From assembly GCA_002781805.1 (NCBI GenBank), contig PFFZ01000029.1, positions 1-10,933 of the forward strand: DNA of 10,933 nucleotides, in the 5' to 3' direction. Below are positions 1-10,933 of the stretch, piece by piece. The position numbers were made by a program, and so were the translations under genes. The notes beneath the pieces were generated by a model. It was not told the origin of the DNA. It made no database searches and saw nothing but the letters and a program-made list of their open reading frames with translations. Source of the DNA: Nitrosopumilales archaeon CG15_BIG_FIL_POST_REV_8_21_14_020_37_12 (lineage in GTDB: Archaea > Thermoproteota > Nitrososphaeria > Nitrososphaerales > Nitrosopumilaceae). Positions within the stretch are counted from its first letter, which is position 1. Every line of letters begins with the position of its first letter.

Positions 1-75
1 TGGAACCCAAGAAAATTTGGTATTTTGTCCATAAAATCTTTTGTAAACCACAAAGATTTTTTTATTGGCAGATAA
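1..75 (+). CDS. Possible 3' end of an upstream gene (C-terminal 24 residues)
   Basis: Frame 1 is open from the left edge to a TAA at 73-75 and would encode a 24-residue tail beginning WNPRKFG and ending FFIGR. The stop lies against the AAGGAG motif of the next gene and 11 bases before its ATG, the usual spacing inside an archaeal operon. That arrangement is the main argument that this is real. The stretch is too short to assign a family. The frame of the downstream gene is also open to the edge but lacks a start codon, and chance openness over 75 AT-rich bases is possible, so confidence is low. Confidence 0.35.
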   Translation, partial: WNPRKFGILSIKSFVNHKDFFIGR

Positions 76-79
76 GGAG
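74..79 (+). promoter_or_regulatory. Shine-Dalgarno motif AAGGAG for the CADD-like gene
   Basis: AAGGAG at 74-79 lies 7 bases before the ATG at 87 and matches the anti-Shine-Dalgarno end of 16S rRNA. Most other genes here show a TATA-like box about 25 bp before the start codon and no such motif. Its presence suggests that this gene is internal to an operon whose first gene lies left of the window. A T-rich stretch at 56-66 could alternatively act as a TATA box. Confidence 0.6.
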
Positions 80-86
80 TTGTGTC

Positions 87-719
87 ATGAATCTAATAAA
101 ACGCATTGATCAAATGATTGAAGAAAGAAGCTTACTCAAACACCCATTTTATGAAATGTGGTCTGATGGAAAATTAACTCTTGACTCTTTAGCTGGATAT
201 TCAAAAGAATATTTTCAACTAGTCAAATCTGTTCCAGGCTTTATGACTCCTATTATTGAAAAAGCTCCACAATCTGAAATAAGTGAACTTGTTGCAAACC
301 AGAAAGAGGAATCTGAACATATACAGCCATGGATTCGATTCGCTGGAGCACTAGGAATATCTGAAGAAGAATTAATGCAGTACGAAGGTCTTCCAAAAAC
401 ACAACATGCAGTTTCTGATCTGGCACAACTGATGAACACCTATGAGGGTGGCTCGTGCGCAATGTATGCATTTGAAAAAGAAATACCAAAAATTAGCCAA
501 ACAAAGCTGGAGGGACTGGCAGAATTTTATGGCATGTCAAGCCAAGATGCCACTGAGTACTTTAAACTACACACTGAAGCTGACATTAGACACGCTGCAG
601 CTTGGAGACATATTCTTGAGAATGCATCTACTGACAAAGATAATTTGATTGAAATTGCAGACAAGTCAATCTCTGCACAAAACCTGTTACTTGACAGTTG
701 TTACGAAGCATATTGTTAG
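87..719 (+). CDS. TENA/PQQC-superfamily diiron protein, CADD-like (candidate p-aminobenzoate synthase)
   Basis: This 210-residue, all-helical protein belongs to the TENA/THI-4/PQQC superfamily. It resembles Chlamydia CADD and Nitrosomonas NE1434 more than thiaminase TenA. Likely metal ligands are E74 or E75, H78, E130, H162, D166 and H169; the last three form the HxxxDxxH pattern in 'HTEADIRH'. Compared with CADD as I remember it, Y22 matches the sacrificed Tyr27, Y38 matches Tyr43 and K140 matches Lys152, while CADD Tyr141 is Phe129 here. CADD is reported to make p-aminobenzoate from its own tyrosine in a metal- and oxygen-dependent reaction. The TenA catalytic cysteine context is absent. 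ATG 87 is favoured by the AAGGAG motif. Automatic pipelines may label it TenA family or iron-containing redox enzyme. The superfamily is secure; the p-aminobenzoate role is inferred. Confidence 0.8.
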   Translation: MNLIKRIDQMIEERSLLKHPFYEMWSDGKLTLDSLAGYSKEYFQLVKSVPGFMTPIIEKAPQSEISELVANQKEESEHIQPWIRFAGALGISEEELMQYEGLPKTQHAVSDLAQLMNTYEGGSCAMYAFEKEIPKISQTKLEGLAEFYGMSSQDATEYFKLHTEADIRHAAAWRHILENASTDKDNLIEIADKSISAQNLLLDSCYEAYC

Positions 720-730
720 GCTCATAACAT

Positions 731-736
731 TTTATA
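731..736 (+). promoter_or_regulatory. TATA box for the tRNA(CAU) gene
   Basis: TTTATA at 731-736 is centred about 27 bp upstream of the first tRNA base at 761, the expected place for an archaeal TATA box. It starts only 12 bases after the CADD-like gene's stop codon, so the tRNA probably has its own promoter. Confidence 0.55.
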
Positions 737-760
737 CCTAAGTAAAATTTCATCTGCTTA

Positions 761-834
761 GGGCCCATAACTCAGCTTGGTAGAGTAACCGGCTCATAAC
801 CGGTGAGCCAAGGGATCGAAGCCCTTTGGGCCCA
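761..834 (+). tRNA. tRNA with anticodon CAU (elongator Met or Ile2)
   Basis: A full cloverleaf can be folded. The acceptor stem is GGGCCCA (761-767) with TGGGCCC (827-833), and A834 is the discriminator. The D stem is ACTC/GAGT. The anticodon stem is ACCGG/CCGGT with loop CTCATAA, placing CAT at 795-797. The variable loop has 5 bases and the T stem is AAGGG/CCCTT. There is no intron, and CCA is not encoded. An initiator is unlikely because the anticodon stem lacks the three G-C pairs next to the loop. The sequence alone does not separate elongator tRNA-Met from tRNA-Ile2, which also carries a genomic CAU later modified at C34. Confidence 0.95.
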
Positions 835-941
835 CTCTCTTCCATTAGTTTTAAAATGAGCAAGGACTAATTTTACTGGCTGCAATGAAGAATCAGAGTT
901 ATATCTGAAAGATGATGTGAAGGCATTTGACTGAGCTGCCT

Positions 942-1547
942 CTAATTTCCAATTTGGTCTTTTACTTTTTGTAGTACCGAGTCGTCAACAAGATTTTGTT
1001 CATACAGTACCTGGGTAATTTGCATTACGTTTAGAATTGAATGCATTTTCACTCCTTGTTCCTTTAGTGCTTCATCTGCCCCTTCCATCCTATTCACAAT
1101 TACATATGCGTCTGTTACCTTGATGTTTGCCTCTCTGAGCGATTTTATGGCGTTAACAACTGATCCTCCCGTCGTCGCCACATCATCTATCATCAAAACC
1201 TTCATCCCATCTTGAATTTTTCCTTCGACTGACTTTGATGTGCCGTACTCTTTTGGCTTGCTTCTGACATAGATTAGTGGTTTGACCGTTTCAATGGCCA
1301 ATGCTGATGCTATCACCAGTCCTCCTGTTGGCACGGATACAATTGAATCAAAACTATCCAGCCCTATGTTCGTGGCAACGTCGTTTTGAAGATGCTTGAT
1401 CATCATTCTAAATTCATGAGGATAGCTAGGGACTAGCCTCAAGTCGACATAATACGAGCTCTTTTTACCGCTTGCAAGAGTAAAATCTCCGAATTTTATT
1501 ATTCCATTTTGATGTAAAAATTTTGCAAACTCTTTTACAAATTCCAT
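942..1547 (-). CDS. pyrE: Orotate phosphoribosyltransferase
   Basis: PyrE joins orotate to PRPP, giving orotidine 5'-phosphate in de novo pyrimidine synthesis in the cytoplasm. The PRPP-binding motif is clear: 'VLMIDDVATTGGS' in the second half. Upstream are 'FTLASGKKSSYYVDLR', typical of the orotate site, and 'VSVPTGGL'. I place the start at ATG 1547, giving 201 residues that begin MEFVKEF and match the normal family N-terminus. A TTG at 1595 would add 16 residues with no family character and leave only 2 bp to the divergent gene. An AT-rich element at 1568-1577 lies about 25 bp upstream of ATG 1547, which fits leaderless transcription. The next pathway gene, pyrF, is not in the window. Confidence 0.95.
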   Translation of the reverse strand: MEFVKEFAKFLHQNGIIKFGDFTLASGKKSSYYVDLRLVPSYPHEFRMMIKHLQNDVATNIGLDSFDSIVSVPTGGLVIASALAIETVKPLIYVRSKPKEYGTSKSVEGKIQDGMKVLMIDDVATTGGSVVNAIKSLREANIKVTDAYVIVNRMEGADEALKEQGVKMHSILNVMQITQVLYEQNLVDDSVLQKVKDQIGN

Positions 1548-1567
1548 ACTAAAATTAACTACACTGG

Positions 1568-1577
1568 ATTTATTTTG
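1568..1577. promoter_or_regulatory. Shared divergent TATA-like element between pyrE and the LarA-like gene
   Basis: The 50-bp gap between the pyrE ATG (1547) and the LarA-like ATG (1598) holds one strong AT element. It reads TTTATTTT at 1569-1576 on the plus strand and AAAATAAAT on the minus strand. Its centre is about 25 bp from each start codon, so it could serve leaderless transcripts in both directions. This is a positional inference. Confidence 0.45.
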
Positions 1578-1597
1578 GTTTGTATTGACTATCAATT

Positions 1598-2680
1598 ATG
1601 CCTGAAATCTGGTTAAACTATGGTATTACTGATGTAGTTTTAGACATTAAAGCAGAGAATCTAGAGCAGAAAATCGATTCTGATGCCAAAACTCTCGAAG
1701 ACGAGGCGATCAATGAAAAAATTGCCTCCATTGATTTGAAAAAACCAATGGAGTTGGTGGTCTTGCATAATTCCAAGCCGGTTCAAAAAATCATTTCATC
1801 GCTATTTACTATGTGTGAGCAAAAATCTGCCCCATTTCCAAAGATATTGGCTGAAAAAAAAATCCTGAATTTGGTAAAGTCTGGATTGCCAGAGGGAAGC
1901 TCCATAAACGAATTTGACAATGCGGATATCTCCAACTCTAATCTTGTATTTATGGGTGAGGTAGAGTTTGATGGACTTTTTGGTTATGAGACTATTGCAA
2001 CCAGATTGATCAAAAAATTTGGCCATGATTCTATGCTCTCTGCATATGCAAAAAGAAAAGACAATCTTCCTGCACCTGGTCAACCAACAGAAAGTTTTGA
2101 GGAAGCAAAAAAATTTGCAGACAATTTTGAGATTCAAGGCATAGAGATTATTGCAAATTCGAGCGGTATTGTGGACTTTGTACTTGGACATCCCTCAAAA
2201 ACAGTATCTGCTACAAAGACTCTGGAATCGTTTGGAATAAAAGACATTGGTGAGCAAAAATCAATGATAATCAGCACAGGTAAAGATGCAAGCAATGACA
2301 CTCTTGGAAAGTCTCTCTCATCGCTATGGAATTGTGCTGGTGCAATTAAAAAAGATGGACTTGCAATACTAGTTGCTGAATGCAAAGGCGGATTAGGCTC
2401 TGATGCAATACAGCAGTTCATCGAAGATCGATTAAGTGTGGAGCAGCTTAGAAATCCCGCAAAATATGTCAACGGCATGGAGGATCTACTGTTCTTGTCT
2501 GAGATCCAAAAGAATTTTCAAATTGGATTGGTTTCAATCTTGCCAGAATTTTATGCAAAGAAATTAAGCATGATCTCTCTTCCCGGCATAAAATATGCGA
2601 TGGACTATATCTTGAAAACGCAAGGTACGAGACAAAAAGTTGCAGTAGTGTCAGACGGTGCGCGACTACTACTACGGTAA
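1598..2680 (+). CDS. LarA-like (DUF2088-related) protein, probably without the nickel-pincer cofactor site
   Basis: This 360-residue protein has the outline of nickel-dependent lactate racemase LarA. Its N-terminus, 'LNYGITDVVLDIKAENL', matches the LarA 'lpYGk..v...ip.eNl' opening. Residues 254-267, 'GLAILVAECKGGLG', match the 'GG.iilvaEC.eGlG' element of the C-terminal domain. The LarA active-site signatures are missing. The LarA segment VEPHYFAGFSGG-K is replaced near residues 122-136 by a run with D125 where a catalytic His should be and no Lys at the pincer-attachment position. The N-terminal RxRP-like motif is 'HNSKP' (57-61). The gene may encode a different LarA-superfamily activity or a non-catalytic protein. 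No larB, larC or larE is in view. ATG 1598 has a TATA-like box 26 bp upstream. Its 3' end overlaps the convergent protease gene by 9 bp. The CDS is secure; the family call is moderate. Confidence 0.65.
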   Translation: MPEIWLNYGITDVVLDIKAENLEQKIDSDAKTLEDEAINEKIASIDLKKPMELVVLHNSKPVQKIISSLFTMCEQKSAPFPKILAEKKILNLVKSGLPEGSSINEFDNADISNSNLVFMGEVEFDGLFGYETIATRLIKKFGHDSMLSAYAKRKDNLPAPGQPTESFEEAKKFADNFEIQGIEIIANSSGIVDFVLGHPSKTVSATKTLESFGIKDIGEQKSMIISTGKDASNDTLGKSLSSLWNCAGAIKKDGLAILVAECKGGLGSDAIQQFIEDRLSVEQLRNPAKYVNGMEDLLFLSEIQKNFQIGLVSILPEFYAKKLSMISLPGIKYAMDYILKTQGTRQKVAVVSDGARLLLR

Positions 2681-3766
2681 AAGACTGGATGGCAGTGGCG
2701 CACACAAAATAGCAAGCACAATCACACCAACATATGCTAACTTACGGTTTTTTGACAGTGGTGATATGTCATCTAATGGATTTGCACTTGGGTTTCTTGA
2801 ACTCATCACAAGAATTAGCATTGCCATTAACCAGTAGCCTAATAGAACCAGTATGGCCATACTCCCAAACGTAGCATATCTGTGTAACTTCGGTCCAAGT
2901 AATGTTCTTGCCATGTGACCCCCATCTAATTGCCATGCAGGTAGTAAATTCAAAAATGTAATCAAGAAACCGATCCATGCTGCAAATAAAACTGGAGTCA
3001 TAATTACATCGTGACCTTGTCCTCCTTTCCCAAACAATGCAAGACTGGCAGTCATGAGAAGAGGTTCTCCTTGGTTCCATTCTATCAGCTTTGATTCTGC
3101 AAACAATCCTTGTGCAATTTCTTCTCCAAGAATTGGGGCAGTGTATGCTCCATAAATTGAAACAATCACTGCAACAATCAGTCCTGCAATGGGACCTGCA
3201 ATTGCTACGTCAAACAGAATTTCCCTGTTTATTGTTAATCCTTTTGACTGAATAAATGCCCCAAATGTTGGAATTCCGATGACTGGAAGTCCTGGAATAA
3301 AGTATGGCCATGTTGTCTTTAGTTTGTGAATCTTTGCTGCAATGATGTGACCCATCTCATGAATGCCTAAAATTCCTAACAACGATAAAGTATAGACTCC
3401 GGCCATCTCTAAAGGATCTCCGATATTTACTATGGAATTTGTCCCCGCAGTTCTATAGTACCCATCAATCATTACAAATGTGACGACAACTGCAAAGAGA
3501 ATTCTTGGAGTCCATGCTGTATTGAGCCATTTTCTTTGTTTTTTTGCAGCAAGCTTTTGAATTATGATGTATTTTTCATTGTTCATCAATTCCATCTTGC
3601 AAACATAGTTTTTTGACTCTAACTCTCGTGCAAGATTCTCGAATTTTTCTTTAAAATCATGATCCTCTATTCGAAATTCCAGAGAGTACATGCCTTTGTT
3701 GAACAGAGTAACATCAAACAAGGAATTGACTAAAGAAATAACATCTTCTTGATAGGGATCACTCAT
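2672..3766 (-). CDS. Site-2 protease family (M50) membrane metalloprotease
   Basis: This 364-residue protein has a hydrophilic N-terminal region of about 85 residues followed by roughly six or seven membrane segments (near 88-104, 121-145, 152-170, 183-206, 255-275, 292-315 and 342-360). The zinc motif HEMGH lies at residues 136-140, with E137 as the catalytic base. A second motif, 'LLPAWQLDGGH' (274-284), supplies D281 as the third ligand and corresponds to the S2P NPDG-type signature. Such enzymes cut substrates within the membrane, often releasing regulators or clearing membrane peptides. No PDZ domain is apparent. The substrate cannot be told from the context. ATG 3766 has the octamer TTTAATGC about 25 bp upstream in the promoter shared with the divergent 57-aa gene. 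Confidence 0.9.
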   Translation of the reverse strand: MSDPYQEDVISLVNSLFDVTLFNKGMYSLEFRIEDHDFKEKFENLARELESKNYVCKMELMNNEKYIIIQKLAAKKQRKWLNTAWTPRILFAVVVTFVMIDGYYRTAGTNSIVNIGDPLEMAGVYTLSLLGILGIHEMGHIIAAKIHKLKTTWPYFIPGLPVIGIPTFGAFIQSKGLTINREILFDVAIAGPIAGLIVAVIVSIYGAYTAPILGEEIAQGLFAESKLIEWNQGEPLLMTASLALFGKGGQGHDVIMTPVLFAAWIGFLITFLNLLPAWQLDGGHMARTLLGPKLHRYATFGSMAILVLLGYWLMAMLILVMSSRNPSANPLDDISPLSKNRKLAYVGVIVLAILCAPLPSSLLP

Positions 3767-3787
3767 TTATTTTTAGACCTATGTTTT

Positions 3788-3828
3788 GCATTAAATGGTT
3801 TTGTGATTTATCTGATATATTTTAATGC
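3788..3828. promoter_or_regulatory. Symmetric divergent promoters: inverted TTTAATGC octamers
   Basis: The octamer TTTAATGC occurs at 3821-3828 on the plus strand and, inverted, as GCATTAAA at 3788-3795. The arms are 25 bp apart. Each lies about 20-25 bp before a start codon: 3766 on the minus strand (protease) and 3846 on the plus strand (57-aa protein). They are most simply two TATA boxes of related sequence, though an inverted repeat of this form could also bind a dimeric regulator. Confidence 0.4.
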
Positions 3829-3845
3829 GCGAAATCCATTAAAAC

Positions 3846-4019
3846 ATGGAATTATTACATCTAATCATGTTAGATGAAGCAACAATAACAAAAAAGGCAA
3901 ATCAGCTACTTTCAGAACTGCGAAGCAATCCTGATATGGCAATTGATGAAAAAGATTTCAAACAAGGCTATTTCAAAGCTCTGGAATGGGTATTATCAGA
4001 TACTGAAATCAGAAAATAA
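3846..4019 (+). CDS. Small conserved-looking protein of 57 residues, function unknown
   Basis: The ORF starts at ATG 3846 and ends with TAA at 4017-4019. It encodes a charged, mostly helical protein that includes 'ITKKANQLLSELRSNPDMA' and 'GYFKALEWVL'. An in-frame ATG at 3867 would give a 50-residue form beginning MLDEA. TATA-like sequence fits either start: 3817-3826 for 3846, or CCATTAAAAC near 3835-3844 for 3867. It has no cysteines, no membrane segment and no signal peptide, and I recognise no family. Support comes from protein-like composition, the divergent promoter and a gap otherwise lacking a gene. Confidence 0.6.
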   Translation: MELLHLIMLDEATITKKANQLLSELRSNPDMAIDEKDFKQGYFKALEWVLSDTEIRK

Positions 4020-4072
4020 TGACTTGAATGTATCTTCTCAATACTCTTAAGTTGAAATGATCATTAGAATAA

Positions 4073-4456
4073 TTGTTGCCTGACAACAGAATTGAATTCC
4101 TTGCTGAGAAGGTTTATTTTCATCACTGGCCACCAGATACTCCCAAATGGAGTGACTTCAGAAAAGACAAAGTTAACGCAGACATTAATACAAATGTGGC
4201 AAAAAAACATGTCTTGATTAGTGGCAAATCAATCCAAATTAATGATTATGTGTTTGACAATGTTAAGAAAGTTGGACTTACGATACCTCAGTTCAAGAGG
4301 CAAAGCGTAATGATCTTTGAAGGCCATTGTGAGGACTTTGATGCTCATGTTCACGTTACAACAAGATCTGAAAACTATCTGGAAATTTTTTACAACCTTA
4401 TGAAATGGCGAGATCTGTGTTTTCCAGACACTCCATTTCTGGATTCTAAAAACTAA
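4073..4456 (+). CDS. Hypothetical protein of 127 residues
   Basis: I do not recognise this protein. It is soluble and mixed in charge, with aromatic-rich stretches 'YFHHWPPDTPKW' (about residues 15-26) and 'LMKWRDLCFPDTPF' near the end. The repeated 'PDTP' in both is notable. The middle carries 'HCEDFDAHVHV', with several His and acidic residues that could bind metal, though no known motif fits. No ATG is available: the frame closes with TAA just before TTG 4073, so the start is TTG 4073 or TTG 4076. A short ATG reading frame (4057, MIIRIIVA) overlaps the start in another frame. The stop overlaps the stop of the convergent zinc-ribbon gene by 4 bp. Confidence 0.75.
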   Translation: MLPDNRIEFLAEKVYFHHWPPDTPKWSDFRKDKVNADINTNVAKKHVLISGKSIQINDYVFDNVKKVGLTIPQFKRQSVMIFEGHCEDFDAHVHVTTRSENYLEIFYNLMKWRDLCFPDTPFLDSKN

Positions 4457-4638
4457 ACTCCAAACGATTGAGGTTTTTGTTTACATCTCGGACAGTCAAG
4501 ACCATTAGTCTCAAAACCGCATTTTTTACAACGTATCTTCATTCCGACTATTGCTGTGGATGAGGTCTTTGATGCTTTTGCAATCAAGACTATTACCAGC
4601 AAAATTCCTATTGCAATTCCAATCCATAACAGTACCAT
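4453..4638 (-). CDS. Small membrane-anchored zinc-ribbon protein (61 aa)
   Basis: One hydrophobic segment (residues 2-20) is followed by a short polar linker and a C-terminal zinc ribbon, C37-X2-C40-X8-C49-X2-C52, in the sequence 'CKKCGFETNGLDCPRC'. The likely topology places the ribbon in the cytoplasm. The role is unknown; such proteins may act as membrane-tethered nucleic-acid or protein binders. ATG 4638 has TATATA at 4661-4666 centred 25 bp upstream, and no Shine-Dalgarno sequence. That promoter lies within an inverted repeat. The gene diverges from the acetyltransferase gene and meets the 127-aa gene tail to tail. Confidence 0.85.
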   Translation of the reverse strand: MVLLWIGIAIGILLVIVLIAKASKTSSTAIVGMKIRCKKCGFETNGLDCPRCKQKPQSFGV

Positions 4639-4670
4639 GAACTATGTTTATTATTCATAGTATATAGTTC
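4639..4670. repeat. Inverted repeat GAACTAT-N18-ATAGTTC over a promoter (candidate operator)
   Basis: The perfect 7-bp arms GAACTAT (4639-4645) and ATAGTTC (4664-4670) enclose 18 bp. A second nested pair, CTATG (4642-4646) and CATAG (4656-4660), is also present. One arm abuts the start codon of the zinc-ribbon gene and the other overlaps its TATA box, so a protein bound here could block transcription. It lies just upstream of the acetyltransferase TATA box as well. Confidence 0.4.
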
Positions 4671-4676
4671 TAAAAA

Positions 4677-4684
4677 TTAAATAT
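4677..4684 (+). promoter_or_regulatory. TATA box for the Ard1/RimI gene
   Basis: TTAAATAT at 4677-4684 is centred 25 bp before ATG 4706, consistent with a leaderless transcript. No Shine-Dalgarno motif precedes the start. Confidence 0.5.
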
Positions 4685-4705
4685 TGAGTTGAGCCTACAT
4701 TACTC

Positions 4706-5203
4706 ATGCAAGTTATTCTCAGACAGCTGGGAGATTGTATTCTTAGACGGGCCGAGCCAAGCGATCTAATCCCTGTTATGGAAATAAATCTGAAAACGCT
4801 TCCAGAGCATTATTCTGACTATTTCTATGAGAGCCTCCTTGCAGAAATTCCAGAGGCATTCATTGTTGCAGAAATTGGTGGCAAACATGTTGGATATATC
4901 ATGTGTAAAACAGAATATGGGTTCTCAAATTTCAAAAAATTGGGTTTTGTAAAAAAAGGTCATGTTGTCTCAATTGCCGTTTTGGACGAATATCGAAAAC
5001 GAGGAATCGGAAAAGCACTTGTTGAAGAGTCAATTAATGGAGTTAAAATCAAAAAATGCGATGAATTCTATCTTGAGGTTCGATGTTCAAACACTGATGC
5101 AGTAAGACTGTATGAAAAACTTGGCTTTATGATTAGACAGCAACTTAACGCGTATTATCGCGATGGTGAGGATGCGTATCTTATGGCCATTGAGATAAAT
5201 TAG
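4706..5203 (+). CDS. rimI: Archaeal Ard1/RimI-type protein N-alpha-acetyltransferase (GNAT)
   Basis: This 165-residue GNAT enzyme would transfer acetyl from acetyl-CoA to the N-terminal amino group of proteins. It closely resembles Sulfolobus Ard1. Shared features include 'LPEHYSDYF' (32-40) in the substrate-binding loop, 'GYIMCKTEYGFSNF' (63-76), 'KKGHVVSIAVLDEYRKRGIG' (83-102) with the acetyl-CoA pyrophosphate loop R97-x-x-G100-x-G102, 'YLEVRCSN' (122-129) with E124, and 'YYRDGEDAYLM' (150-160). This family acetylates a broad range of N-termini in archaea, including ribosomal and Alba proteins, so the bacterial name RimI (ribosomal S18 specific) is only a label. ATG 4706 fits the TATA box at 4677-4684. 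Confidence 0.93.
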   Translation: MQVILRQLGDCILRRAEPSDLIPVMEINLKTLPEHYSDYFYESLLAEIPEAFIVAEIGGKHVGYIMCKTEYGFSNFKKLGFVKKGHVVSIAVLDEYRKRGIGKALVEESINGVKIKKCDEFYLEVRCSNTDAVRLYEKLGFMIRQQLNAYYRDGEDAYLMAIEIN

Positions 5204-5211
5204 TTCAAACC

Positions 5212-5220
5212 AATAAATAA
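5212..5220 (+). promoter_or_regulatory. TATA box for the two-TM protein gene
   Basis: AATAAATAA at 5212-5220 is centred 26 bp before ATG 5242. It supports that ATG over the TTG at 5233, for which the spacing would be only 17 bp. Confidence 0.5.
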
Positions 5221-5241
5221 CTCACGAAAAATTTGTCCGCC

Positions 5242-5460
5242 ATGGACAAGCGTAAAGGGATGGGAATTGCAATATTTGTTCTTTGTATTGGCGGATTCTT
5301 TCTTTATGCATATCTGCTGATGTTATCTGAATGGAGTCCTATTGTTTTGCAACTGTCTGTTTTGATGATCGCAGGTGGAATCCTTGGAGTTATTGCATGG
5401 ATTGGCTATGTAATGGCAACGACAAAACCTTCCACTGCCTCAATCTCTTCTGATGATTAG
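5242..5460 (+). CDS. Small two-transmembrane protein (72 aa), function unknown
   Basis: The protein begins MDKRKGMGIAIF and has two hydrophobic segments, about residues 7-27 and 33-57, joined by a short loop containing 'SEWSP'. The tail after 'MATTKP' is Ser/Thr-rich and acidic. The basic N-terminus suggests that both ends are cytoplasmic. No family is recognised; it resembles the many small lineage-specific membrane proteins of ammonia-oxidising archaea. ATG 5242 is preferred to TTG 5233 because of promoter spacing. Its stop lies one base from the stop of the convergent methyltransferase gene. Confidence 0.8.
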   Translation: MDKRKGMGIAIFVLCIGGFFLYAYLLMLSEWSPIVLQLSVLMIAGGILGVIAWIGYVMATTKPSTASISSDD

Positions 5461-5461
5461 A

Positions 5462-6289
5462 TTATTTTGTAATCCTTACATCCACTACTGTTTGATAGTA
5501 TCTGGGACCCACTGGTCTTACGATTTTTGAACCCAGTATCTCCGATTTTACTGGGGTTACATGCAAATAATGCTCCTCAGACAGTTTTCCCGCCTCGGAT
5601 TTTCTATCTGCATGAATGTGAGAATAATAGTGAATAATACCTCCACTTTTTGTAGCATCTATTGCCGACTGTAGAAACTCGTCTGATCTCTCAGGAAGCA
5701 GCATCAGAGTCCTGTCTGACTTGTTTTCTAGCTGTTCTTTGATTATTTTAGATGCATCGCCGTTTATTGAAATTACTTTGCCTAAAAGCTTGTTTGACGC
5801 TATGTTTTTTTCACATAACATTGATGCCACAGGGTTGATGTCTATGCTGTATACAGTACATTTCTTCTTTTTTGCAGCCATGATTGAAAACATTCCCACT
5901 CCTGCAAACATGTTAACTACTGTTTCTCCATCATTTACCTGATTTGCTATTCTTTCCCTCTCTGTAGACAATCTTGGTGAAAAGAATGCGTTTTCAACAT
6001 CTACTGTAAACTTGCATCCAAATTCCTTGTATTCTGTCTCTGTTTTGTCTTCCCCTGCTAAAATCTCCAAATGCCTTGTACGGAAATCCCCTTCAACTGC
6101 TGAGGCTTGATAAAATACGCTTTTTGCTATTTTTACTTCTTTTAGCAGCGTTTCTCCAATTATTTTCTTCTTTGATAACAATGAATCTGGGATTCTTACG
6201 ATGATGATGTCTCCTATCTGGTCAAATGCAGAAATTAGCTCGCTGCTCTCCTCTTCTGTAAGGATACTCTCTAATGCTTGCTTTAACAT
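5462..6289 (-). CDS. Trm5/TYW2-family tRNA (G37) methyltransferase
   Basis: A class I SAM-dependent enzyme of the family that methylates N1 of G37, or in the TYW2 branch adds the acp group to the wyosine precursor. Numbering from TTG 6298 (subtract 3 for the chosen ATG start): 'GDFRTRHLEILAG' (70-82) and 'FFSPRLSTERERI' (105-117) carry the Arg and Glu used by Trm5, 'NMFAGVGMFSI' (129-139) is the SAM motif I, 'SIDINP' (151-156) is motif II, and 'GGIIHYYS' lies near the end. The Trm5 'MNLP' motif is 'LLPE' here (200-203), so its Asn is replaced. IDINP favours Trm5 over TYW2. The length lacks the N-terminal D1 domain of longer Trm5. ATG 6289 sits 5 bases after the ABCE1 stop; a TTG at 6298 would overlap it as TTGA. 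Either implies co-transcription and likely coupling with ABCE1. Confidence 0.85.
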   Translation of the reverse strand: MLKQALESILTEEESSELISAFDQIGDIIIVRIPDSLLSKKKIIGETLLKEVKIAKSVFYQASAVEGDFRTRHLEILAGEDKTETEYKEFGCKFTVDVENAFFSPRLSTERERIANQVNDGETVVNMFAGVGMFSIMAAKKKKCTVYSIDINPVASMLCEKNIASNKLLGKVISINGDASKIIKEQLENKSDRTLMLLPERSDEFLQSAIDATKSGGIIHYYSHIHADRKSEAGKLSEEHYLHVTPVKSEILGSKIVRPVGPRYYQTVVDVRITK

Positions 6290-6294
6290 CCGAG

Positions 6295-8082
6295 TCAATT
6301 CTTGTAATAGAAATTTCCAGAGCTTTTTTGTTCTTTATCAAGCCTGCTTTCTAATTTATTGACACGGGGTCTCAAGCTCTTCTCATCTCTCCTAAATGAC
6401 ATGTCAAGGGACTTTAGGAACCTGTTCATGGCATTTGATTTGTTCATTGGCGATGTTGCATGGCCTGTCTTTCCTGACTCACCTTCGAAAATTACCATTG
6501 AATCTGAAATGAGATCCATCAACTGCAAGTCATGATCAATTACTATTGCTGATTTTCCAAATGAGCGAACAAACTTTTGTAAAAACTTTGCGACTGCAAT
6601 TCTGTCTTCGACATCCAAGAAAGCTGATGGCTCGTCTAGCGCATAAAGGTCTACTTTTTGCAATAGGCATGATGCTACGGCAACCTTTTGAAGTTCTCCA
6701 CCTGACAAATTCTTGACTGATTTGTTATACAGTTTTTTAATTTTTAATGGATCCAGGATCTGCTCTTCTTCCTGACTTCCTTCAATTGCCCCATCGTTTG
6801 CTTTTTCTAGTAATGCAATAACTTCAACATCTATATCGTTTTGAAGGTATTGCGGTTTGTATGCAATTTTTATTTTCTTGTCTATGAAACCCGAGTCAGG
6901 TTTTTCTACGCCTGCAATCATTTTCATCATTGTAGTTTTGCCAAGAGCGTTTGCTCCCATTATTCCGAGAATCTCGCCTTTTCTTACCACGCCTGGATCA
7001 ATGGTTACTGAAAACGTTGGATATTTTTTTTCTAGTTTTGGATACGATACAATCTCGCTTCCTTCCTGGAATTCATCAGTTGATGACGATGAAACATCAA
7101 ATGAGAATTTTTTGTCTCTGAACCTCACGTTCTCGTTTGGAAGATAACCGTCAAGAAACACATTGATTCCAACCTTGGTGGATAAGACACTAGATACCAC
7201 TCCATATGCTGCTGGCTCTCCATACAGGACTTCGATATAATCACTTAGGAAATCTAATAACGTAAGGTCGTGCTCTACAACCATGACGCTTTTTCCAATC
7301 TCTGCAAGACTCTGAATGACTCTTGCAACACCCCTTCTTTGGAAAACGTCATTGTATGACGACGGCTCGTCAAAAAAGTAAAACTCTGTGTCTTTTGATG
7401 CTGCAGCTGCAACTGCAATTCTTTGCAGTTCTCCACCGCTCAGCTCTTTTAGATTTTGCTCAAGTGAGTTTTCTAGTCCTAACTCCTTGATTATCTGACC
7501 TGACACTCCCCGTTCATCGTATTTTTCAATGAGCTCCTTGCCTGTCCCATTAAATGCCTGGGCGATGTGATGTACCTGTTGGGGCTTGATAGATGCGCGA
7601 ATTTTGTTTTGTTTTATTTTTTCAAAATGTGATTTCAACTCTGTTCCGCTGTAATACTTTAGAATTTCATCCCATTCTGGAGGATCTTCATACCTGCCAA
7701 GATTTGGTTTGAGGTTTCCTGAAAGAATGTTCACCACCGTACTTTTTCCCATTCCATTTCTTCCAAGTAGTCCTACTACCTCGCCTTTTTTTGGAGTGGG
7801 CAGTTTGTAAAGCCTAAATGAATTTGGACCGTATTGATGAATTTTATCTGTAGCAAGCTCTGAAGCTAAATTGACAATGGTGATTGCCTCAAACGGACAT
7901 ACTTTGACACATATACCACATCCATTGCAAATGTTCTCGTCAATCTGGGCTTTTTTTGTCTCTTCGTTGAGGACTATGCAATCTGCCCCTGATTTGTTTA
8001 CTGGGCAGTATTTTATGCACTCCAATCCACATTTTCTAGGCTGACAAAGTTCCTTGTCAAGTACTGCTACCCTATGCGTCAT
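6295..8082 (-). CDS. abce1: ABCE1/Rli1 ribosome-recycling ATPase
   Basis: ABCE1 splits post-termination ribosomes and also acts in initiation. The 595 residues match the family's usual length. The N-terminal iron-sulfur domain has cysteines at 13, 18, 22, 26, 35, 52, 55, 58 and 62, enough for two [4Fe-4S] clusters. ABC domain 1 has Walker A 'GRNGMGKST' (107-115), signature 'LSGGELQR' (214-221) and Walker B 'FYFFDEPS' (234-241), with the family-specific helix-loop-helix insertion near 140-165. ABC domain 2 has Walker A 'GANALGKTT' (376-384), signature 'LSGGELQK' (459-466) and Walker B 'LYALDEPSAFLD' (479-490). The first D-loop reads SSYND rather than the usual SSYLD. ATG 8082 has a TATA box at 8107-8111. 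The gene is followed by the Trm5-family gene as an operon and diverges from the 5S rRNA. Confidence 0.97.
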   Translation of the reverse strand: MTHRVAVLDKELCQPRKCGLECIKYCPVNKSGADCIVLNEETKKAQIDENICNGCGICVKVCPFEAITIVNLASELATDKIHQYGPNSFRLYKLPTPKKGEVVGLLGRNGMGKSTVVNILSGNLKPNLGRYEDPPEWDEILKYYSGTELKSHFEKIKQNKIRASIKPQQVHHIAQAFNGTGKELIEKYDERGVSGQIIKELGLENSLEQNLKELSGGELQRIAVAAAASKDTEFYFFDEPSSYNDVFQRRGVARVIQSLAEIGKSVMVVEHDLTLLDFLSDYIEVLYGEPAAYGVVSSVLSTKVGINVFLDGYLPNENVRFRDKKFSFDVSSSSTDEFQEGSEIVSYPKLEKKYPTFSVTIDPGVVRKGEILGIMGANALGKTTMMKMIAGVEKPDSGFIDKKIKIAYKPQYLQNDIDVEVIALLEKANDGAIEGSQEEEQILDPLKIKKLYNKSVKNLSGGELQKVAVASCLLQKVDLYALDEPSAFLDVEDRIAVAKFLQKFVRSFGKSAIVIDHDLQLMDLISDSMVIFEGESGKTGHATSPMNKSNAMNRFLKSLDMSFRRDEKSLRPRVNKLESRLDKEQKSSGNFYYKN

Positions 8083-8106
8083 ATCGTATTTCCATAAGCA
8101 TTTGCC

Positions 8107-8112
8107 TTATAC
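8107..8112 (-). promoter_or_regulatory. TATA box for the ABCE1-Trm5 operon
   Basis: The minus strand reads GTATAA here, centred about 27 bp upstream of ATG 8082, which suits a leaderless transcript. The 5S rRNA promoter lies some 35 bp further on in the opposite direction. Confidence 0.5.
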
Positions 8113-8144
8113 CTCTTTTGAACTAATCTCAGTTACGGCGTTAC

Positions 8145-8154
8145 GTTAATAGAT
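8145..8154 (+). promoter_or_regulatory. TATA-like box for 5S rRNA
   Basis: GTTAATAGAT is centred about 27 bp before the predicted 5S start near 8177. It indicates that the 5S gene has its own promoter and is not processed from a longer rRNA precursor. Confidence 0.45.
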
Positions 8155-8176
8155 GAGAATCTGACATTGATTTTCA

Positions 8177-8292
8177 AGCCGGCCATAGCGTTAGGGTGCG
8201 ACCCAATCCCTTTCCGAACTTGGAAGTCAAACCTGACGTCGCTGTTGTGCTACTAAGATGCGAGAGCTCTTGGGAAGCAACAGTGCTGGCAT
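8177..8292 (+). rRNA. rrf: 5S ribosomal RNA, stand-alone
   Basis: The roughly 116-nt segment has the archaeal 5S layout. Terminal helix GCCGGC (8178-8183) pairs with GCTGGC (8285-8290), with one G-U pair. It also contains the GCGACCCAATCCC segment, the highly conserved CCGAACTTGGAAGTC loop near 8215-8229, and 'GATGCGAGAGCTCTTGGGAA' in the second domain. A short T run at 8292-8295 follows and may terminate transcription. No 16S or 23S sequence is adjacent, consistent with the unlinked 5S known in Thaumarchaeota. Exact ends are uncertain by a few bases. Confidence 0.93.
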
Positions 8293-8311
8293 TTTCCATT
8301 ACTCTTCAATC

Positions 8312-8321
8312 TTTTAATATA
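8312..8321 (+). promoter_or_regulatory. TATA box for the C2H2 zinc-finger gene
   Basis: TTTTAATATA lies about 30 bp before ATG 8348 and after the 5S termination region, so the small gene probably has its own transcript. Confidence 0.45.
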
Positions 8322-8347
8322 GACGCAAATCATGAAATTTGATTCTA

Positions 8348-8476
8348 ATGCCAAACTGTAGTGTATGTGGAGAAAAATTCTCAGATGACATTCGCTTCTT
8401 AAATCATATGATGGAAAAACATGGTTTTAGAAATCCAAATATCGACAAACCTGATAGAAACAGCAGAGGATACTAG
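8348..8476 (+). CDS. Single C2H2 zinc-finger microprotein (42 aa)
   Basis: ATG 8348 to TAG 8474-8476 encodes 42 residues with one classical C2H2 finger: C4-X2-C7-X12-H20-X4-H25, including F11 and L18 at the usual core positions ('CSVCGEKFSDDIRFLNHMMEKH'-type layout, shown here only by its ligands and core). The tail, from 'GFRNPNIDKPDRNSRGY', is basic and probably disordered. A single finger of this sort may bind nucleic acid or protein. It lies just downstream of 5S rRNA with its own TATA box. Its TAG overlaps the TAG of the opposing small gene through the palindrome CTAG. Confidence 0.75.
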   Translation: MPNCSVCGEKFSDDIRFLNHMMEKHGFRNPNIDKPDRNSRGY

Positions 8477-8664
8477 TCTAGCTCTTTTAGAATGTCTTTC
8501 AGAGTATCAATCTCGTCTTTAAGAAAATCTGCAGTAGCAATAACGCTGTTTTTTGCCGTATCTGATATGTTGTACTTCATCTCTTTTTCAATCAGTTCTT
8601 TTAGTTGCTCTCTTTCCATAATCAAATCGCTTAATCTCATTACGGCATTTTCTACTGTCAACAT
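8473..8664 (-). CDS. Small helical, coiled-coil-like protein (63 aa), function unknown
   Basis: The protein is highly charged and appears almost wholly helical. Heptad-like hydrophobic spacing runs through 'RLSDLIMEREQLKELIEKE' (about 10-28) and again through the C-terminal 'FLKDEIDTLKDILKEL' (about 47-62), suggesting a two-helix coiled coil or helical hairpin. It has no cysteine, membrane segment or recognised domain. ATG 8664 lies 2 bases after GGTGAG (8667-8672), which resembles an anti-Shine-Dalgarno match but is unusually close. The upstream His/Cys-rich ORF overlaps this start by 7 bp, so translational coupling is likely. Confidence 0.75.
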   Translation of the reverse strand: MLTVENAVMRLSDLIMEREQLKELIEKEMKYNISDTAKNSVIATADFLKDEIDTLKDILKELD

Positions 8665-8795
8665 TTCTCACCAATCTTATGAACATGACTATCTGGATGA
8701 ACACGCCGTTCGTCTATGTGCCTGTAACGTGTGAAATCATATCCTGCATGACGTGTATCATTACAGATTTTCTTACCCATGTGATGACAATCCAT
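8658..8795 (-). CDS. His/Cys-rich basic small ORF (45 aa), probable gene
   Basis: ATG 8795 to TGA 8658-8660 encodes 45 residues with three Cys (3, 11, 45) and eight His (4, 5, 16, 26, 33, 37, 39 and neighbours), many Arg and Lys, and no hydrophobic stretch. The pattern suggests a metal-binding or nucleic-acid-binding microprotein, but it fits no family I know. Its stop overlaps the start of the 63-aa gene by 7 bp and its 3' end carries that gene's GGTGAG motif, a typical coupled-operon arrangement. An inner ATG at 8780 fits a TATA-like TATATTATTATA (8802-8813) with leaderless spacing; ATG 8795 fits a weaker AT element near 8818-8823. The opposite strand also has an open frame, so this is probable rather than certain. 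Confidence 0.5.
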   Translation of the reverse strand: MDCHHMGKKICNDTRHAGYDFTRYRHIDERRVHPDSHVHKIGEKC

Positions 8796-8853
8796 ATTTT
8801 GTATAATAATATAGAAATTAATTTTCAATACTGATAATTGATCTCACATATGC

Positions 8854-10320
8854 TCAAATATTTTGTAAATAATCAAGAATCAGTCTTACTCCAAACCCCG
8901 TAGCTCCTTTTGGATTGTATGGTTTGTCTTTTGTTGCAACTTGAGTCCATGCCACGCCTGCAATATCCATGTGAACCCATGGCGTATCTTTTATTGCATT
9001 TCTTAGAAATGCTGCAGCAGTTATTGTCCCTGCCGCTCTTCCGATCCCTACGTTTTTCATGTCTGCCACGTCTGACTTTATCATGTCCATGTAATCGTCA
9101 TTTAGGGGTAACTCCCAAATTTCCTCGGTGGTGTTTCTTGACGACTCTAACATCTGCTGCTTTAGTTTGTCATTGTTTGAAACCATTCCCGCTACGTTAG
9201 TCCCTAATGCGACAATACATGCACCCGTTAATGTTGCAAAGTCTATGATTGCTTTTGGAGCATAGTGTTTTTCTCCAAATGATAATGCGTCAGCTAAGAT
9301 TAATCGACCCTCTGCATCTGTGTTTAGTATTTCTGCAGTTTTTCCGCTATACAGTTTTATGATGTCTCCTGGTCTGTATGATTCTCCTCCTGGCATGTTT
9401 TCAACTGACGGGACAATTCCTACAACGTTTATTGGAAGTTTCAATTCTGACACTGCCTTCATTATTCCCAAGACTGTACAGCCTCCACACTTGTCAAATT
9501 TCATCTCGTCCATTTTTTCTCCGGGCTTTAGAGATATCCCGCCAGTGTCAAATGTTACTGCTTTTCCAACCAACACAATTGGCTTTTCTGATGTCTTTCC
9601 TCTATTGTGCTCTAGAATTATCAACTTTGGATCATTTTTACTTCCTTGACCCACTGCAGTAATCCCGCCAAAACCCCTTTTCTTTAACTCATCTTTGGAA
9701 ATTACGGTGCATTTCATTTTGTTCTTTTTTGCCATGTCTCTTGCAAAATTGGCTAATGTTGATGGCGTACATTCGTTTGGAGGCAAATTTGCAATACTTT
9801 TTGTAAATATTGCGCCATCTGAGACTGTCTCTGCAGTTTTTATTGTATTGATAATTTTGTCTGATTTTGGTGAGATTATGAAAAGATCCGGCATAGAGTT
9901 GTCTTTTTCTGATCTGTATTTTTCAAATTTGTATAGTGATAACTTACAACCTTCTACAATCTGTGAAACTGTAGATGTTGACTCTGAACTTGGCGGGCAT
10001 ATGATGGAAAATTCTCTTAACTTCAACTCTCTTGCTTTTTGAGCAATCTTTCCTGAGACGTACCTAAAAGTATCCTTTGTAAACTGCTCTTTCTTGCCAA
10101 TGCCTGCCAATAGAATTCTTTGAGCAGGCGATTTTACAGGAATGACTGATATCTTGCCAAACTTTCCCCCCATATCTATGATGGACTGCTTAACAAATGG
10201 GGCAATTTCTGAATCAATTCTGTCAAGCCCTAAAATTTTATCTGATCCCTCCACTACAAATCCACAAAGCATGGATGTCTTTTTTTTATCGGGACTTGAC
10301 GTCTCTATCTTGATTTTCAT
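8854..10320 (-). CDS. pepA: M17 leucyl aminopeptidase (cytosol aminopeptidase)
   Basis: This 488-residue enzyme removes N-terminal residues from peptides in the cytoplasm, using two metal ions. All key residues of the family are present. Metal ligands are K253, D258, D276, D335 and E337; K265 and R339 are the catalytic pair. They lie in 'VGKAVTFDTGGISLKPG' (251-267), 'MKFDKCGG' (273-280) and 'NTDAEGRL' (333-340), with spacing equal to E. coli PepA as I recall it. The N-terminal 165 residues form the more variable macro-like domain. The length matches the family. ATG 10320 lies 23 bp after the stop of the DCC-family gene; a TATA-like CTAAATAAC that includes that stop is 27 bp upstream, so both operon read-through and a private promoter are possible. 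E. coli PepA also binds DNA in recombination and regulation, which cannot be judged here. Confidence 0.96.
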   Translation of the reverse strand: MKIKIETSSPDKKKTSMLCGFVVEGSDKILGLDRIDSEIAPFVKQSIIDMGGKFGKISVIPVKSPAQRILLAGIGKKEQFTKDTFRYVSGKIAQKARELKLREFSIICPPSSESTSTVSQIVEGCKLSLYKFEKYRSEKDNSMPDLFIISPKSDKIINTIKTAETVSDGAIFTKSIANLPPNECTPSTLANFARDMAKKNKMKCTVISKDELKKRGFGGITAVGQGSKNDPKLIILEHNRGKTSEKPIVLVGKAVTFDTGGISLKPGEKMDEMKFDKCGGCTVLGIMKAVSELKLPINVVGIVPSVENMPGGESYRPGDIIKLYSGKTAEILNTDAEGRLILADALSFGEKHYAPKAIIDFATLTGACIVALGTNVAGMVSNNDKLKQQMLESSRNTTEEIWELPLNDDYMDMIKSDVADMKNVGIGRAAGTITAAAFLRNAIKDTPWVHMDIAGVAWTQVATKDKPYNPKGATGFGVRLILDYLQNI

Positions 10321-10343
10321 ATGAAAACGACTATTCTGCTGTG

Positions 10344-10733
10344 TTATTTAGATTTACCAAACTCTATCTTCCTGCTTTTAGATATCAAACTTGCAGATCT
10401 GACAAACACTGCTTTTATTGTTTTACAGTCTTGACTGCACTCATCATCAAAATTTACCGTCCCTGTTTCTTTTCTCTTAAACCGCATAATTTCTTTTACC
10501 AGTGGTAAAAGGGCCGCTCTTCCACCAAAGGCGTTTTTTTCATCAATAAACCAAAACATTTCAAGTGCAGAGTCATCCAAAATTTTATCTCTGATTGTTT
10601 TTCCTAAATTTGTATAATGGCCCACCATTGTTATTCTTCCTCTTGACATAAAGTTGATCATTTTGGCAAACTTGACACAGAGATAGCACTGATTATCGTA
10701 CACTATTATTGGAATTTGCTCTTTGTAGCTCAT
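10344..10733 (-). CDS. DCC-family (DUF393) thiol-disulfide oxidoreductase-like protein
   Basis: The 129-residue protein opens with 'IVYDNQCYLC' (10-19), the DxxCxxC motif that defines the DCC/DUF393 group, a thioredoxin-like family of mostly unknown substrates. 'FGGRAALLPLVKEI' (69-82) corresponds to the family's second conserved helix. An additional C99-X3-C103 pair near the C-terminus, in 'DDECSQDCK', is not part of the core motif as I know it and could form a second redox pair or share a metal site with C16/C19. There is no signal peptide, so it should act in the cytoplasm. ATG 10733 has TTTTAATT (10755-10762) centred 25 bp upstream. It is followed closely by pepA. Confidence 0.82.
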   Translation of the reverse strand: MSYKEQIPIIVYDNQCYLCVKFAKMINFMSRGRITMVGHYTNLGKTIRDKILDDSALEMFWFIDEKNAFGGRAALLPLVKEIMRFKRKETGTVNFDDECSQDCKTIKAVFVRSASLISKSRKIEFGKSK

Positions 10734-10754
10734 GACGTTTAATCACATTCATCG

Positions 10755-10762
10755 AATTAAAA
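10755..10762 (-). promoter_or_regulatory. TATA box for the DCC-pepA gene pair
   Basis: The minus strand reads TTTTAATT, centred about 25 bp before ATG 10733. This is the likely main promoter of the two-gene unit. Confidence 0.5.
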
Positions 10763-10817
10763 TTTTACACGTAAAACTCATAATCTAAATTAATGAAAAT
10801 ATTAGAATAAACTAGAA

Positions 10818-10829
10818 TTTTTTAAAAAA
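10818..10829. terminator. Palindromic T6A6 tract, likely terminator of the zinc-ribbon gene
   Basis: TTTTTTAAAAAA at 10818-10829, flanked by AGAA/TTCT-type bases, follows the stop of the partial minus-strand gene within 5 bases. On that strand it gives a run of six T, the usual archaeal intrinsic stop signal. It separates that gene from the DCC promoter. Confidence 0.5.
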
Positions 10830-10833
10830 TCTT

Positions 10834-10933
10834 CTAATTTTGTCTATGGTTTTGGAAACATTCTCTGCAATAAACAGGTCTGTCGTCTTTTGGTTTGAAT
10901 GGTATTTGACATTCATTTCCACAGTCACCGCAC
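10834..10933 (-). CDS. Zinc-ribbon protein, C-terminal part only (CxxC-X17-CxxC)
   Basis: The minus strand is open from the right edge to TAG at 10834-10836 and encodes 32 residues. They contain CGDC, then 'IPFKP', then 'RPVYCRECF', giving the ribbon CxxC-X17-CxxC, and end in a short basic tail. This arrangement with a conserved RPVYC(R)xC(F) is common in small bacterial and archaeal zinc-ribbon proteins of unknown role. The start and any N-terminal domain lie beyond the window, so neither length nor function can be judged. Confidence 0.8.
   Translation of the reverse strand, partial: CGDCGNECQIPFKPKDDRPVYCRECFQNHRQN

Follow-up and report, generated by a model that had tools for sequence, protein, structure and literature searches.

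A candidate self-sacrificing p-aminobenzoate synthase of divergent archaeal type in ammonia-oxidising archaea

Which enzyme supplies p-aminobenzoate (pABA) for folate synthesis in ammonia-oxidising archaea? The question is raised by an open reading frame (ORF) at the start of contig PFFZ01000029.1 (assembly GCA_002781805.1) of Nitrosopumilales archaeon CG15_BIG_FIL_POST_REV_8_21_14_020_37_12, whose positions 1 to 10,933, forward strand, form the window of 10,933 nucleotides analysed here. The ORF lies at 87-719 on the plus strand, runs from ATG to stop and encodes a 210-residue protein that is a candidate self-sacrificing pABA synthase with a heme-oxygenase-like dimetal fold, similar to CADD of Chlamydia and PabS of Nitrosomonas. 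It is a genuine gene, with orthologues at 45-98% identity in 40 of 60 related genomes, far beyond chance. The first-pass annotation of this DNA, made from the letters alone, had proposed a CADD-like pABA synthase, and the analysis supports that reading, with CADD and PabS as the best matches and the key residues conserved. Judged from its sequence, the protein very probably makes pABA in ammonia-oxidising archaea and is a self-sacrificing synthase of a divergent archaeal kind.

The family assignment begins with two Pfam matches, Haem_oxygenas_2 (54.1 bits, cut-off 28.9) and TENA_THI-4 (51.1 bits, cut-off 22), which reveal the fold only. Both would also be expected if the protein were simply TenA (thiaminase II) or PqqC, since the fold is common to TenA and PqqC, but the PqqC model TIGR02111 gives the window protein 33.6 bits against a cut-off of 240. 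TenA and PqqC readings were rejected on score, ligands and structure, and the chance that either is correct is negligible. The top NCBIfam match is TIGR04305, fol_rel_CADD (160.6 bits, E 4e-47). In phmmer searches of the PDB the best matches are the 4-aminobenzoate synthase chain 9pj4 (E 4.3e-31) and CADD (1rcw/8va9, E about 1e-30), with PqqC 25 orders of magnitude weaker; the window protein has a heme-oxygenase-like fold with CADD as closest. Chain 9pj4 is 99% identical to the proteins of N. supralitoralis and N. ureae and 84% identical to that of N. europaea ATCC 25978. By these identities it probably comes from a species near the first two, and the enzyme characterised from N. europaea is probably a different protein; the chain is referred to here as Nitrosomonas PabS. 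At the published PabS positions 25, 148, 159 and 177 it carries Tyr, Phe, Lys and Phe (offset 21).

Conservation of the active site was assessed by comparing the 41 archaeal orthologues, including the window protein, with the best 80 of 535 confirmed bacterial relatives, an uneven set of 59 Nitrosomonas-type proteins and 21 others. Across the 121 rows no more than 22 of the 210 residues never vary, among them Y22, Y38, K140, E75, H78, E130, H162, D166 and H169. The last six form the proposed 3-His/3-carboxylate ligand set, unchanged in 41/41 archaeal and 80/80 bacterial rows of the alignment, so that the metal-ligand pattern is kept as first supposed. They lie in the compact motif E75-x-x-H78 (309-320), at E130 (which with F129 occupies 471-476) and in H162-x3-D166-x2-H169 (570-593). 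The ligand assignment follows the metal-ligand numbering of CADD. The first carboxylate is assigned to E75 by alignment (its bacterial column is Glu in 80/80); E74 is also invariant in the archaea. Y22 (150-152), the proposed sacrificed tyrosine, and K140 (504-506), the proposed amino donor, are likewise invariant in both sets. Of the 14 lysines in the window protein K140 is the sole invariant one, and of its ten tyrosines Y22, Y38, Y42 and Y148 are invariant. In the phmmer alignment Y22, Y38 (198-200) and K140 fall on CADD Y27, Y43 and K152, as the first-pass annotation had proposed, and Y22 and K140 fall on the 9pj4 positions equal to Y25 and K159. The PabS study (PMC11965152) gives Tyr27 and Lys152 as the sacrificed residues of CADD and Tyr25 and Lys159 as those of N. 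europaea PabS. Two PqqC-like proteins of a relative carry Leu or Thr at the Y22 site and Phe or Arg at the K140 site. The first-pass annotation also noted Phe at the position of CADD Tyr141 and suspected that details of the mechanism might change; F129 does align there (F in 24, L in 12 and Y in 5 of the 41 archaeal rows), but this is no departure, as N. europaea PabS has Phe at the same position (F148).

The second line of evidence is a gap in the folate pathway. It was examined in a set of 61 genomes, consisting of the window genome (a draft of 1.02 Mb in 110 contigs, 61% complete) and the 60 relatives. A FolP-type dihydropteroate synthase (PF00809, E 1e-40 or better) is encoded in 46 of the 61, and that of the window genome clears the equivalog cut-off. 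Chorismate_bind proteins number one in 48 genomes and none in 13; no genome of the 61 has two, and no PabB was found. TrpG and TrpD lie beside the Chorismate_bind gene in 29 of the 30 loci examined (of 48), that of the window genome included. In the remaining locus, G057, the top model is archaeal TrpE at 510.0 bits, slightly under the cut-off of 512.05; the protein of the window genome scores 495.7 bits with the same model, and the best PabB models give 314-332 bits on these two proteins. The Chorismate_bind protein thus looks like TrpE in all 30 loci, and this, together with the lack of a second such protein in any of the 61 genomes, argues against a hidden PabB. TrpG could stand in as PabA. 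A hidden PabC was sought among the Aminotran_4 proteins, which occur in 60 of the 61 genomes, with one or two in 56 of these. The six that were scanned (two each from G000, G003 and G037) all score over the branched-chain transaminase cut-off and none reaches that of aminodeoxychorismate lyase; both Aminotran_4 proteins of the window genome are branched-chain transaminases. The canonical PabABC route looks to be missing, because no PabB was found and the six scanned Aminotran_4 proteins are branched-chain transaminases. A complete pabABC set, which the earlier proposal had named as a decisive counter-finding, did not emerge, and the window genome, at 61% completeness, combines a dihydropteroate synthase with the lack of this route.

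Published work fits de novo folate synthesis in these archaea. In one study, N. viennensis stocks were kept through multiple transfers without vitamins, trimethoprim inhibited N. viennensis only when the medium contained no vitamins, and none are listed for the medium of N. maritimus (PMC11897584). PurN has been assigned to Thaumarchaeota in another (PMC3261824).

Matches to the protein at E 0.001 or better occur in 42 of the 61 genomes, and 41 of them were counted as orthologues (E 1.9e-51 or better). The one dropped was G049, with three weak hits (best E 3.3e-15). Two of its loci, L102 and L103, in a genome without amoA, are PqqC-like by NCBIfam (180.8 and 232.9 bits, cut-off 240), and L103 departs from the alignment at all six metal-ligand positions. 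The gene is present, in single copy, in 38 of the 41 amoA-bearing genomes and in three of the 20 without amoA, namely the window genome (61% complete), G033 (84%) and G041 (94%). Fisher tests gave p 2e-9 for the gene against amoA and p 3e-4 for the gene against FolP; they take no account of kinship and do not count as proof here. The window genome itself shows no amoA, and the earlier description of its owner as an ammonia oxidiser holds only by kinship: ammonia oxidation is assigned to the organism because all four same-genus relatives carry amoA. Among 398 sampled genomes of the phylum, taken irrespective of amoA, 73 match with an E value of 1e-15 or lower: 63 belong to the family of the window organism and ten to two further families of its order. 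No match reaches this threshold in the remaining 325. A tree of 69 rows (41 archaeal, six of the 59 Nitrosomonas-type, 21 other bacterial and one PqqC-like) splits the archaeal rows from all others at a branch supported at 94/85. Its only outgroup is the one very long PqqC-like row, so it gives no direction of transfer.

Several observations weigh against the assignment, and the first concern divergence. The window protein misses the 200-bit cut-off of TIGR04305, and six further archaeal orthologues score 136.3-176.6, so that 7/7 archaeal proteins scanned fail; the four bacterial relatives scanned clear it (265.9-296.5 bits). As first metal motif, 41/41 archaeal rows have E-x2-H, with two intervening residues, as opposed to E-x6-H, with six, in 80/80 bacterial rows. 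The metal-ligand loop of CADD and PabS is therefore longer by four residues, a difference that the first-pass annotation had overlooked. The archaeal and bacterial clades lie a long branch apart, and E132 and W173 are invariant in 41/41 archaea and found in 0/80 bacteria (E41 is present in 3/80 and S137 in 1/80 bacterial rows). A long-branched clade below the CADD cut-off, with a different first motif and invariant residues of its own, could also be a heme-oxygenase-like dimetal oxidase (HDO) of the CADD clade that performs some other oxidation on a small substrate and keeps the residues for structure or radical transfer, all the more as HDO members with similar ligand sets catalyse very different reactions (PMC13108848). 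Such an oxidase is improbable, given that K140 is no metal ligand yet is the only invariant lysine, that Y22 and K140 are absent from the two PqqC-like rows and that the searches of these genomes turned up no alternative enzyme for making pABA. The protein agrees with CADD and PabS in fold, ligands and sacrificed residues but falls short of the curated score and departs in the spacing of the first motif; it is filed as CADD/PabS-like because the key residues are in place and no other filler of the step was found in the genome. Gene neighbours offer no folate support either (the window ORFs judged by Pfam, the 21 other locus stretches by clustering only): among the ten further window ORFs scanned, no Pfam name points to a folate gene, and four of them are without any match.

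The remaining objections come from genomes that lack the gene. Three bear amoA: G007, G016 and G028. G007 and G028 belong to one genus of reduced genomes (0.8 Mb, 93-95% complete) that has kept amoA and FolP. In G007 the flanks of the locus are kept and the place of the gene, between PyrE and a neighbouring synthase (C1 55849-56325), is empty. This gap of 476 bases holds tRNA-Met and tRNA-Glu and no remnant of the gene, with no significant match to 43 rows (best E 0.15); the gap in G028 is similar in length. The absence is read as a true loss in one genus, and this lineage should then need pABA from outside or obtain it in some other way. In G016 the absence is probably an assembly gap and is not counted as a loss, because clear orthologues of both flanking genes are also missing. 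Six further genomes, all without amoA (G044, G046, G048, G050, G059 and G060), have FolP and neither a CADD-like gene nor a second chorismate-binding enzyme. For this reason another archaeal pABA route or salvage seems to exist near the group and could serve ammonia oxidisers. Methanogens make pABA without PabABC. Taken together with the genus of G007 and G028, which kept FolP without the gene, these six relatives lend something to the proposal that the protein can make pABA but serves as a second-line source or has a different main role, with ammonia oxidisers drawing mostly on salvage or on an undescribed archaeal route. This is rated as still less probable than the oxidase with another reaction, for the gene is single-copy and retained in 38 of 41 amoA-bearing genomes, one of the three gaps being probably an assembly artefact.

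The archaeal form of the active site allows a prediction about the metals of the proposed pABA synthase. Wild-type PabS has Phe at positions 148 and 177; F177Y, alone or with F148Y, changes the cofactor from Fe/Fe to Mn/Fe, and F148Y alone makes the enzyme metal-flexible (PMC11965152). The archaeal residue at the second position, Y158 (558-560; CADD Y170, PabS F177), is Tyr in 41/41 archaeal and 9/80 bacterial rows. The Phe/Tyr pattern of the PabS F177Y variant recurs in 24 archaeal rows, the window protein among them, and the Tyr/Tyr pattern of CADD in five. The archaeal site may be Mn/Fe or metal-flexible, because Y158 is Tyr as in this variant, a fair prediction by analogy that is weakened by the differing loop. 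W173, four residues past ligand H169, might be part of an archaea-only radical path.

Family, fold, conserved residues, spread, FolP in most genomes and the outcome of the PabB and PabC searches come directly from the data; the chemistry and its steps would follow by analogy with two characterised bacterial enzymes. The dimetal site (E75, H78, E130, H162, D166 and H169) would bind two metals, activate O2 and form an oxidant. From there a radical would travel to Y22 by way of aromatic residues, namely Y158, Y38 and perhaps tryptophans. The side chain of Y22 would be cut off the backbone, leaving glycine behind, and its ring oxidised by O2 to the carboxylate. The ring would then be aminated with the side-chain nitrogen of K140 and pABA released, leaving a spent, single-use protein. 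This pABA would feed dihydropteroate synthase and hence tetrahydrofolate, replacing PabA, PabB and PabC. A bolder version, to which we give slightly less than an even chance, is that all folate of ammonia-oxidising archaea costs one protein per pABA, made by a distinct archaeal class with a compact ExxH site, Mn/Fe or metal-flexible via Y158, with a possible W173 relay. The gene would have been gained by a common ancestor together with the aerobic lifestyle, oxygen replacing an anaerobic pABA route.

At the locus itself the contig starts 86 bases from the gene, and the upstream neighbours are cut off by the contig end. Downstream lie a tRNA-Met (761-835) and, at 942-1595 on the opposite strand, an orotate-phosphoribosyltransferase-like gene (Pfam Pribosyltran) that reads as PyrE from its letters. 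The next ORF is a gene of cluster c2, prenyl-synthase-like by its letters, in 12 of the 22 locus stretches compared, and in 11 of those 12 it is followed by genes of cluster c0, probably NADH-dehydrogenase-like. The ORF at 1598-2680 encodes a 360-residue protein that is present in ten of the 22 stretches and has no Pfam match at E 1e-4. The ORFs at 6298-8082, 5465-6298, 8857-10320 and 2675-3766 are ordinary genes by Pfam; the ordinary neighbours include an RLI-type (ABCE1-like) ABC protein, a TRM5/TYW2 methyltransferase, an M17 aminopeptidase and an M50 peptidase.

No archaeal CADD/PabS protein was found in the open-access literature searched by title and abstract, where listings were partial and most subscription papers lay outside the scope. 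The discussion of the 2025 PabS paper mentions bacteria alone, and its main text has no "archae-" word (PMC11965152), nor has the 2026 HDO review (PMC13108848). As far as this search reaches, the protein, if its function is as proposed, would be the first archaeal self-sacrificing pABA synthase. It would identify the pABA step that is missing from the folate pathway of ammonia-oxidising archaea, which are among the most abundant microbes on Earth. It would also provide a third, divergent enzyme class for the unsettled chemistry of tyrosine cleavage and the rule of Fe/Fe versus Mn/Fe. The reading predicts tyrosine-derived pABA, peptides with Y22 converted to Gly and with modified K140 in proteomes, and a strict need for oxygen. 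In the window protein the Y22 peptide is HPFYEMWSDGK (MH+ 1396.599, or 1290.557 with Gly in place of Y22), and a K140 converted as in PabS should no longer be cut by trypsin. It further predicts that the reduced genus lacking the gene is naturally dependent on pABA or folate. The warning that pipelines would hide the identity proved apt: Pfam names the protein TENA_THI-4, and a pipeline relying on the NCBI CADD cut-off would leave these archaeal proteins unnamed, as all seven scanned fall below it.

Among known systems, the PqqC and TenA families have the heme-oxygenase-like fold and the Pfam TENA_THI-4 match in common with the archaeal protein. Identity in the structural alignment is 15-17% to PqqC rows and 10-22% to rows labelled TenA or TENA/THI-4, and the two PqqC-like rows are without equivalents of Y22 and K140. 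UndA has a similar ExxH first motif. The dimetal HDOs UndA, BesC, HrmI and FlcD mostly have the 3-His/3-carboxylate set (PMC13108848). CADD of Chlamydia trachomatis (CT610; 1rcw, 8va9, 8vag) is a self-sacrificing pABA synthase with an Mn/Fe cofactor. The archaeal protein is 31% identical to it in the structural alignment and differs in having E-x2-H in place of E-x6-H and F (L or Y in other archaea) in place of Tyr141. Nitrosomonas PabS (NE1434 in N. europaea; chain 9pj4), a self-sacrificing pABA synthase with an Fe/Fe cofactor, is 34% identical and differs in the same first motif. It has in common with the archaeal protein the equivalents of Tyr25 and Lys159, Phe at the Tyr141 position and an aerobic ammonia-oxidiser as its source. 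In contrast to PabS, the archaeal protein carries Tyr158 at the position of Phe177, the change that switched PabS to Mn/Fe (PMC11965152).
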